64,000 nt of DNA, taken from an uncultured Bacteroidota bacterium. Its GTDB lineage: Bacteria; Bacteroidota; Bacteroidia; 2-12-FULL-35-15. Under the pieces are notes generated by a model that was given only the letters and a program-made list of their open reading frames with translations, ran no database searches and had not been told where the DNA came from. Location of the stretch: contig CAINDA010000044.1 in the NCBI GenBank assembly GCA_903847205.1, positions 124,001 to 188,000 on the forward strand. The letters run 5' to 3'. Position 1 is the stretch's first letter, and every line of letters begins with the position of its first letter. Shown piece by piece: positions 49,453 through 53,940 of the stretch. Made by a program: the position numbers and the translations under genes.

Positions 49453-49607
49453 AAAATGTTAATTGCCAGATTGTTTAATTGCTGAATTGTTATAATCACT
49501 ATCAGTATTACCGTTTAACATTGCTGGATAGCACTTTGATGAATTTTACAATATAACAGTTTAACAATTTAACATTATAACAGTTTAGCAATACAGCCTT
49601 TGAAATA

Positions 49608-51617: not shown

Positions 51618-51650
51618 AGACCTGACAGGTTTTAAAAACCTGTCAGGTCT
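51618..51650. repeat. REP-like palindrome, copy 1
   Basis: Perfect 15-base arms (AGACCTGACAGGTTT and its complement) around a TAA centre, between deoC and the transposase, ending 27 bases before the transposase ATG. Three other copies of the core ACCTGACAGGT...ACCTGTCAGGT lie at 51937, 52366 and 53908. Confidence 0.88.
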
Positions 51651-51677
51651 AAAACACAAAATATTATTACTTTTCTG

Positions 51678-52358
51678 ATGTCAAAGACAATTCCATTAGA
51701 ACCAGATCATTTTTATCACATTTACAACCATTCGAATGGAAAGGATACTATTTTTATCTCAGAAAACAATTACAAATATTTTTTAGAAAAATTCAAAGAA
51801 TATATTTCGCCGATTTCTGAAACATACGCCTACTGCCTGATGCCGAATCATTTTCACTTTTTAATTAAATTAAATAGTGAAGCCGATGTATTTAAGTGGC
51901 TTAGAGAGAATGAAAAAATTGCTGATGATTCTTTAAATCTGACAGGTTTTAAAAACCTTTCAGGTTCGTCCATTGCAGGCTTTAATCCTTTTTCAGCGCA
52001 TATCAACAGACGGTTTGCTGACTTTTTTAACTCTTATTCTAAATCATTAAATAAACAAGAGAGCAGAATGGGAAGTTTGTTTGTCAGGACTTTCAAGAGA
52101 AAGCAAATATCTTCTGAGGAGGAATTACGAAATACAATATTTTATATTCATACAAATCCTATACATCATGGATTTGCAGAACGCATTACTGATTGGAAAT
52201 ATTCATCCTACCAATCATTGATCTCTGAAAAGCCGACACAGCTAAAACGATCGGAAGTAATGGCGCTGTTTGATGATATTGAAAATTTCAAATTCAGCCA
52301 TCAGAAGATAAATAAGGATTTATTACAAAAATTAGAATTAGAAATGCAGAACTTATAG
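51678..52358 (+). CDS. REP-associated tyrosine transposase (RAYT, Y1/IS200-like HUH)
   Basis: A 226-residue Y1-type transposase. The HUH motif is His58-Phe59-His60 in CLMPNHFHFLIKL, the N-terminal strand is DHFYHIYNHSN, and the catalytic Tyr is probably in FYIHTNPIHHGF near residue 160, all as in RAYT (TnpA_REP). Family members nick and move single-stranded REP palindromes. The gene sits between two copies of the palindrome and contains a third in frame (residues about 86-97, reading LTGFKNLSG) between the HUH site and the Tyr. Length is typical. It interrupts the deoC-aldehyde dehydrogenase neighbourhood and is read in the same direction. Confidence 0.92.
   Translation: MSKTIPLEPDHFYHIYNHSNGKDTIFISENNYKYFLEKFKEYISPISETYAYCLMPNHFHFLIKLNSEADVFKWLRENEKIADDSLNLTGFKNLSGSSIAGFNPFSAHINRRFADFFNSYSKSLNKQESRMGSLFVRTFKRKQISSEEELRNTIFYIHTNPIHHGFAERITDWKYSSYQSLISEKPTQLKRSEVMALFDDIENFKFSHQKINKDLLQKLELEMQNL
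51937..51965. repeat. REP-like palindrome, copy 2, inside the transposase coding sequence
   Basis: 27 of 29 bases match the core of the other copies, with two changes at 51938 and 51960. It is read through in frame, giving the residues LTGFKNLSG. Confidence 0.85.
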
Positions 52359-52365
52359 GTTTATA

Positions 52366-52396
52366 GACTTGACAGGTTTTAAAAACCTGTCAGGTC
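52366..52396. repeat. REP-like palindrome, copy 3
   Basis: Starts eight bases after the transposase stop and ends 23 bases before the aldehyde dehydrogenase ATG. One mismatch in the left arm (ACTTGACAGGT) relative to the perfect copies. Confidence 0.87.
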
Positions 52397-52419
52397 CGCA
52401 TCCCTCAAATAATAATAAC

Positions 52420-53892
52420 ATGAGCAAAAAACAAGAAAACAAAATCGGATTAGATTTCAAAACAGACTGGGCTTATGCGCCTGCCCCCGAAGATACTAAG
52501 CATATTAACCTTCAGAAGCAGTACGATCTTTTTATCGACGGAAAATTTGTAAAACCGAACAGCAAAAAATATTTCGACACTACTAATCCTGCAACCGAAC
52601 AAAAAATTGCGGAATTAGCTGAAGCTGATGAAAAAGATGTGGACAAAGCAGTGAAAGCTGCCCGCAAGGCATTTGATAAATGGAGTAAAATTTCAGCAAA
52701 AGAACGCGGTAAATATATTTACCGCATTGCAAGGCTGATGCAGGAGCGTGCCCGCGAATTTTCTGTGATTGAATCGTTGGACGGCGGTAAACCCATCCGC
52801 GAAAGCCGTGATATTGATGTGCCTTTGGCCGCCAATCACTTTTTTTATAATGCTGGCTGGGCTGATAAATTAGAATATGCTTTTCCAAATAGAACTCCCA
52901 AACCATTGGGAGTAGCCGGACAGATTATTCCTTGGAATTTCCCTTTGCTGATGGCCGCCTGGAAAATTGCTCCAGCGCTTGCAGCCGGCAATACTGTTGT
53001 TTTAAAACCCGCAGAAACAACTTCGCTTACTGCATTAAAATTAGCTGAATTAATCCGCGACAGCGGACTGCCCGATGGTGTTGTAAATATTATTACCGGT
53101 GCTGGCAGAACAGGAGCTGCAATGGTGAATCATCCCGACATAAATAAAATTGCATTTACCGGCTCTACTGATGTCGGCAAAATGATTCAAAAAGCAATTG
53201 CCGGAACAGATAAAAAACTAACACTTGAGTTAGGCGGAAAAGCTGCCAATATTATTTTTGAAGATGCACCGCTTGATCAGGCTGTTGAAGGAATTGTAAA
53301 CGGAATTTTCTTTAACCAAGGCCACGTATGCTGTGCAGGCTCCCGTTTGTTTGTGCAGGAAAGCGTTGCTGATATTGTTATCCGTAAATTAAAAGACAGG
53401 ATGGAAACGCTGATTGTAGGCGACCCGATGGATAAGAATACCGATATTGGAGCCATCAATTCAAAAGAACAGCTTCTTAAAATTCAGGAGTATATTAAGA
53501 TCGGAAAAAATGAAGGGGCTGATTTTTACCAGAGTTCATGCGCTGTTCCGGGTAAAGGATTTTTCTGCCGGCCTACTTTATTTTTAAATGCTTCGCAGTC
53601 GCACCGCATTGTGCAGGAAGAAATTTTCGGTCCGGTATTAACAGTGCAGACTTTCCGCACCATTGAAGAAGTAATTGAAAAGGCGAACAATATTGCTTAC
53701 GGCCTATCTGCCGGCATCTGGACAGATAAAGGTTCAAAAATATTTAACCTGTCGAGCAAGATGCGAGCAGGTGTTGTTTGGGCGAACACGTATAATAAAT
53801 TTGACCCTGCATCTCCTTTCGGCGGATACAAAGAAAGCGGTTTCGGCCGTGAAGGCGGACTGCATGGACTGATGCCGTATTTAAAATTTTAA
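52420..53892 (+). CDS. Aldehyde dehydrogenase (NAD-dependent, ALDH superfamily)
   Basis: The ATG at 52420 is used; an apparent start at a TTG at 52369 lies inside the palindrome and is rejected. The 490-residue enzyme has LGVAGQIIPWNFPLLMAAWK (NAD site), FTGSTDVGKMIQKA, the active-site Glu in LELGGK, and the catalytic Cys304 in NQGHVCCAGSR. PFGGYKESGFGREGG is near the C-terminus. It oxidises an aldehyde to an acid with NAD(P). Next to deoC it may handle acetaldehyde from deoxyribose, which is inferred from position only. It is full length, unlike the shorter partner downstream. Confidence 0.94.
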   Translation: MSKKQENKIGLDFKTDWAYAPAPEDTKHINLQKQYDLFIDGKFVKPNSKKYFDTTNPATEQKIAELAEADEKDVDKAVKAARKAFDKWSKISAKERGKYIYRIARLMQERAREFSVIESLDGGKPIRESRDIDVPLAANHFFYNAGWADKLEYAFPNRTPKPLGVAGQIIPWNFPLLMAAWKIAPALAAGNTVVLKPAETTSLTALKLAELIRDSGLPDGVVNIITGAGRTGAAMVNHPDINKIAFTGSTDVGKMIQKAIAGTDKKLTLELGGKAANIIFEDAPLDQAVEGIVNGIFFNQGHVCCAGSRLFVQESVADIVIRKLKDRMETLIVGDPMDKNTDIGAINSKEQLLKIQEYIKIGKNEGADFYQSSCAVPGKGFFCRPTLFLNASQSHRIVQEEIFGPVLTVQTFRTIEEVIEKANNIAYGLSAGIWTDKGSKIFNLSSKMRAGVVWANTYNKFDPASPFGGYKESGFGREGGLHGLMPYLKF

Positions 53893-53907
53893 TTTAAACA
53901 TACCTAT

Positions 53908-53940
53908 ACACCTGACAGGTTTTAAAAACCTGTCAGGTGT
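53908..53940. repeat. REP-like palindrome, copy 4
   Basis: Perfect 15-base arms (ACACCTGACAGGTTT and complement) between the two aldehyde dehydrogenase genes. The end bases are ACA/TGT, whereas copy 1 has AGA/TCT, so both keep full pairing. Confidence 0.88.

Follow-up and report, generated by a model that had tools for sequence, protein, structure and literature searches.

How REP-associated tyrosine transposases (RAYTs, also called TnpAREP) recognise and spread repetitive extragenic palindromes (REPs) is an open question, for which the available text of PMC8266576 relies on a single co-crystal together with three biochemical models. The window analysed here, a stretch of 64,000 nucleotides from an uncultured Bacteroidota bacterium, contains a RAYT gene together with four copies of a 33-bp palindrome. 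We consider it likely that this locus is a RAYT/REP-type unit, in which a Y1 HUH transposase acting on single strands is accompanied by the dispersed palindromes cognate to it, and the best reading of the evidence is a GTAG-less RAYT/REP system in which the enzyme co-evolves with its palindrome. The lineage to which it belongs offers dozens of natural enzyme-palindrome pairs with which to approach the question of recognition and spread.

Both in-frame REPs within RAYT genes and atypical REPs in Bacteroidetes are already known from the classification of PMC6006769, as far as the available portions of that paper go. Its subclass 2.4 (RAYT group 4) shares with the window locus the Bacteroidetes hosts and an in-frame REP between the HuH and Y motifs; such in-frame copies, bearing a GTAG or double foot, are called unique to 2.4, with some found in 2.8 as well. 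The REPs of 2.4 bear either a GT[AG]G foot or a double one, and its proteins the motifs WQ and YIxNNP, whereas the window locus has no foot, F135-V136 and YIHTNP, and the repeat of its lineage consists of two mini-hairpins with complementary loops. YIHNNP occurs in 12 of 94 sequence rows (duplicates included), and neither the motifs nor the foot of subclass 2.4 describe this lineage. Subclass 2.6 (RAYT group 5) is also mostly from Bacteroidetes, and the same portions of PMC6006769 report atypical, GTAG-less structures flanking its genes, with copies genome-wide. Its motifs are NH[LIV]H, WQ and YIH[QN]NP, in contrast to the NHFH of the window lineage (92 of 94 rows, again with duplicates) and the lack of WQ in the window protein. 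NHFH fits one motif of subclass 2.1, yet that subclass is described there as having no REP-like sequences near the gene, whereas the window RAYT is flanked by palindromes. A C-terminal HTH-like domain is another character of 2.1; for the window protein Pfam returned no match of any kind. The window lineage has one feature each of 2.4 and 2.6 and matches the motif set of neither. We found no published report in the open-licence literature of the two-mini-hairpin architecture or of the residue-118 code described below.

The RAYT gene (51678..52358, + strand) encodes 226 aa, with the HUH motif at H58-F59-H60 and the catalytic tyrosine at Y156 (YIHTNP). Palindrome copy 1 (51618..51650, no strand assigned), an inverted repeat of 33 bp with a 1-nt centre, lies 27 nt upstream of the ATG, and copy 3 (52365..52397, no strand) starts 6 nt past the stop codon. 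Copy 4 (53908..53940, no strand) is a dispersed intergenic copy flanked by two aldehyde dehydrogenase genes. Copy 2 (51935..51967, + strand) lies in frame within the RAYT gene itself, in the interval between the HUH motif and the tyrosine, and encodes LNLTGFKNLSGS (residues 86-97), its in-frame peptide being NLTGFKNLSG. The 29-mer cores are found at 51620-51648 (no mismatches), 51937-51965 (two), 52367-52395 (one) and 53910-53938 (none), and 100 dinucleotide shuffles gave no match to this core. An earlier interpretation made from the letters alone (the sequence-only reading) had reported four long palindromes within 2.3 kb, all of which are present, and two of them bracketing the transposase. 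The bracketing and the upstream distance of 27 nt stand, while the downstream distance, given as eight bases after the stop, becomes 6 nt for the 33-mer. That reading had missed that the second copy is in frame, that the repeat is built of two hairpins, and that a residue of the enzyme correlates with the palindrome.

The palindrome occurs at 52 places in the source genome when up to three mismatches are allowed; the reversed control gave none. The sequence-only reading had expected such dispersed copies and had named their absence as a result that would count against it, which is not what was found. Among the 50 places for which context was counted (all context classes rest on a simple open reading frame (ORF) model), 48 are intergenic and the other two lie inside genes; the neighbouring genes of the intergenic copies are in tandem in 30 cases, convergent in 10, divergent in 7 and without class in 1. 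From a palindrome to a gene 3′-end the median distance amounts to 29 nt. Mirror pairing across the 50 copies supports an element length of 33 bp, with 45-50 of 50 copies paired in all but one of the 16 column pairs (41 in the exception), falling to 7 of 50 one base beyond; the outermost four columns on each side lay outside the search pattern. As a single strand the element is predicted to form a strong hairpin (-15.9 kcal/mol, z -8.2). When the copies are oriented by their flanks, one side prefers TTT(T/C), at 3.15 bits against 1.52 (sd 0.16) for control places taken 45-130 nt away without restriction to intergenic DNA, and none of 100 control sets scored as high. The canonical REP foot is lacking: of the 50 genome copies just 1 has GT[AG]G at either end, and the window copies have none, as the sequence-only reading had remarked.

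The RAYT protein matches the NCBIfam family NF047646 (REP-associated transposase) with an E value of 3.3e-19 and 69.2 bits, which is under the curated cut-off of 80 bits; a Pfam search returned no match whatsoever. Its predicted structure (pLDDT 94.7) has E. coli TnpAREP (4er8) as top Foldseek match (E 1.4e-8), and in the VIA comparison the two superpose with Z 16.3 (158 residues, 2.3 A), the next chain reaching Z 8.4. The HUH motif (NHFH), the Y motif (YIHxNP), the TnpAREP fold and the flanking, genome-dispersed palindromes all place it in the RAYT/TnpAREP family. The E. coli protein and its REPs resemble this system in fold, in the HUH and Y motifs and in the association of gene and repeat, but possess a GTAG guide and the residues contacting it, both of which are missing here. 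The E. coli GTAG-contact residues W94, Q95, E100, H101 and R104 (as listed in the available part of PMC6006769) align with F135, V136, R141, K142 and S145 of the window protein. E. coli K82 touches the REP from helix alpha3, according to the accessible text of PMC8266576; hhalign pairs it with R111 of the window protein, which puts residue 118 seven positions further along that helix. In the model, the palindrome-encoded peptide is a short helix and loop between helices 68-77 and 104-127. The source genome contains one gene of this lineage. It also holds a second RAYT-like gene (L017, G000:C23:33025-33477) with the 2.6-like motifs NHIH, LWE and YIHNNP, and none of the window's palindromes is found in the stretch around it. 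On plasmids, just eight weak RAYT relatives were found.

The arrangement is not confined to the window. At least 80 named loci and 16 from the same genus gave 89 after the removal of five duplicates and two broken frames, and flanks were counted for 83 of these (six had a short flank) at an inverted-repeat score of at least 12. Flanking inverted repeats are present at 60 of the 83 RAYT loci as opposed to 19 of 144 control ORFs, and on both sides at 33 of the 83 as opposed to a single control. The repeats measure exactly 33 nt in 46 of 99 cases and 31-35 nt in 80 of 99. Their arms are themselves palindromic (arm stem of at least 5) in 89 of 124 elements, compared with 5.1% of shuffled arms. The common architecture is a 15-nt mini-hairpin, a 3-nt spacer and a second 15-nt mini-hairpin, with complementary 3-nt loops and no GTAG foot; the sequence of the repeat varies from locus to locus while this architecture is common to related Bacteroidota RAYTs. 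In the Chryseobacterium group the loop variants CAT, TAT and CAC are each paired with a matching second arm. At one site of that group (L256 versus L289), genome G072 has the 33-mer and genome G036 the 15-nt monomer alone, exactly 18 nt shorter. REPINs (PMC3116915; defined in PMC6006769, each available in part) likewise join two inverted REP hairpins into one larger hairpin, although the doublet described here measures just 33 nt in all, its spacer is 3 nt long and it lacks GTAG. At one genus locus (L035, G026) the RAYT frame runs upstream through the palindrome-encoded TAFPKFGTLEKL, so that the protein would gain a peptide at its N-terminus.

An inverted repeat 190-310 nt after the ATG was found in 32 of the 89 loci, one of which (L137) was later excluded for its different architecture. 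For the 27 loci that have internal as well as flanking copies, internal copies match their own flanks with a mean identity of 0.886, against 0.597 for the flanks of other loci, a difference reached in 0 of 20,000 permutations; for 17 of the 27, no other locus offers a better match than the own flank. The internal elements use three reading frames (20, 6 and 6 of the 32). Treated as a label (31 of 87 rows), the internal copy requires 20 changes on the best tree, and at least 8 on well supported branches. These observations speak for repeated insertion or conversion rather than for one fossil copy, although loss may also have played a part.

One residue of the enzyme varies with the stem class of the palindrome. 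Stems were typed from the flanks only, for 62 of 88 loci; the mixed locus L092 was dropped and L039 was assigned to CTTT through its centre. Of 39 CC-type loci, 38 have Asn at residue 118, and of 22 CTTT-type loci, 21 have Ser there. The mutual information of this residue with stem class is 0.94 of 0.94 bits, and the excess of 0.90, as against 0.35 for the next column, is the highest among the columns tested; in the window this is codon 118 (Asn; 52029..52031, + strand). In a further set of 20 RAYT paralogues, 12 of the 13 typed obey the rule. Thirty Chryseobacterium-group loci, 26 of them Asn with CC-type stems (two had an unreadable residue, one no element and one no frame), add little, since some of these genes were already in the first set. 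Independent pairs on strongly supported branches number three and all agree (p 0.25); there are 11 pairs on all branches. From these alignments the enzyme appears to distinguish palindrome classes by one amino acid. The lineage supplies a candidate specificity switch of a single residue, checkable by an ordinary binding test, and a repeat that consists of two minimal hairpins.

The occurrence of RAYT and palindrome across genomes accords with the link drawn in the sequence-only reading, kinship being uncorrected in both comparisons. Of 36 genomes of the genus, 11 have both, 3 the RAYT only, 3 the palindrome only and 19 neither (Fisher p 2.4e-4); for 60 Chryseobacterium-group genomes, scored with the group's own palindrome, the corresponding numbers are 36, 3, 13 and 8 (p 0.011). 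In two of the RAYT-only genus genomes (G026 and G032) the palindromes flanking the RAYT are different ones, and in the third (G025) the RAYT has NHFS instead of NHFH and the flanking repeat is absent. The CTTTTCC type is present in 6 of 16 genomes: G021 and G026 have 6 copies apiece, G034 has 2 and three others have 1. With so few copies this type is hardly dispersed. As to a class of palindromes proper to Bacteroidota, which had also been suggested, 74 of 80 RAYT loci among the matches listed carry Bacteroidota titles, the other six being Chlorobiota, Ignavibacteria, Chloroflexi, Balneolaceae, an unnamed bacterium and a Bifidobacterium metagenome-assembled genome. The last of these (L134, titled Bifidobacterium breve) clusters with Bacteroidota and is perhaps a mis-binned contig.

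A sign of movement is found in hutU (urocanate hydratase; L293, G000:C65), where an exact in-frame palindrome insertion of 33 nt, or 11 codons, lies in a loop of the protein. It is absent from all 29 aligned relatives (the alignment covers 30 of 32 genomes with HutU). Three relatives (L298, L299 and L310) carry other inserts in the same loop, which for that reason looks like a permissive hot spot. Such an insertion in a metabolic gene is a route by which short peptides derived from a DNA palindrome may enter proteins. In-frame palindromes within protein-coding genes are also known from the Rickettsia palindromic elements (cited in PMC3733652), for which, unlike the window palindromes, the available text of that paper states no link to a RAYT.

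Dispersal, association with the RAYT, the missing GTAG and the spread in Bacteroidota together uphold the proposal that the locus is a RAYT-REP unit with its own repeat family. In such a system the element, when exposed as single-stranded DNA, would fold either into a single hairpin of 15 bp or into two mini-hairpins whose loops are complementary, and the RAYT may read the stem via the alpha3/alphaC helix, residue 118 included, in place of a GTAG guide. The enzyme would cut and rejoin copies, seeding new ones rarely, into intergenic DNA or tolerant protein loops; the RAYT-internal copy would be a repeated self-insertion, or a copy maintained by conversion, in a tolerant surface loop. We tentatively put forward, at rather less than an even chance, a more specific proposal: a distinct RAYT/REP class whose 33-nt (11-codon) double mini-hairpin enters protein loops without frameshift, those of the transposase included, and whose recognition has shifted from GTAG to the stem, residue 118 (N/S) choosing the accepted stem base pair. 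Flanking and internal copies would then be replaced together, enzyme and repeat switching specificity as a set. Several observations weigh against the co-evolving system. Three of the 36 genus genomes and 13 of the 60 Chryseobacterium-group genomes have palindromes but no detected RAYT, 23 of the 83 RAYT loci have no flanking repeat at threshold, 26 of the 88 no stem type, and copy numbers are modest. The residue-118 rule is broken by L337 and tested by just three strongly supported independent pairs. Ten of the 27 internal copies are closer to the flank of another locus (similar palindromes or a misplaced centre), and on a weakly supported tree parsimony does not separate repeated insertion from loss and conversion. 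No transposition was seen, and between G036 and G072, close genomes of the Chryseobacterium group with aligned stretches 91-98% identical, there is no clear fresh insertion: 28 of the 29 G036 copies are at the aligned place, and among the 34 copies in G072 are two additional sites that G036 seems to have lost (two regions of the surplus, L276 and L277, were left out of the gain and loss calls). A palindrome tandem array spaced ~145 nt apart has 4 copies in G072 (L270) and 2 in G036 (L252), a local array change for which gain and loss are alike possible.

This stability is what would be expected if the RAYT had been domesticated, now merely binding the palindrome (for autoregulation or DNA maintenance) after an ancient dispersal; the 29th G036 copy is also present in G072, one base longer, and the lineage has a single gene in the source genome. 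We regard domestication as somewhat unlikely, given the hutU insertion missing from every aligned relative and a copy number that ranges from 0 to 52 across one genus. It is improbable that the palindromes are instead regulatory, bidirectional terminators or mRNA hairpins flanking genes by chance, a role that would be compatible with a mobile one. The predicted hairpin, the nearness to gene 3′-ends and the convergent copies agree with it, but the 7 copies between divergent genes, the 30 in tandem and the in-frame copies within RAYT and hutU do not, and terminators predict no transposase residue that follows the stem sequence; because of the divergent and in-frame copies we rate a pure terminator role low. 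A selfish palindrome independent of the RAYT, resembling the Rickettsia elements and landing in the RAYT gene too, would account for the insertion in hutU, an unrelated gene, and for the genomes with palindromes and no detected RAYT. We judge it very improbable, since RAYT genes are flanked far more often than control ORFs, and by many palindrome sequences, internal copies match the flanks locus by locus, and residue 118 follows the stem class.

Other repeats were seen in the same genomes. A second, GC-rich palindrome, CCTCCCCTTNGGGGAGG, is present in 23 of the 36 genus genomes with at most one mismatch (for example L299 in G034), and many of its listed places are close inverted pairs. Four RAYT paralogues of the Chryseobacterium group (L329, L331, L336 and L339) are flanked by another kind of palindrome, AGGTTGTTAGAGCT... 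and variants. In the window itself, a short 8-bp tandem repeat resembling AATTTAAC lies between ORFs at 49542-49589, in four staggered copies.
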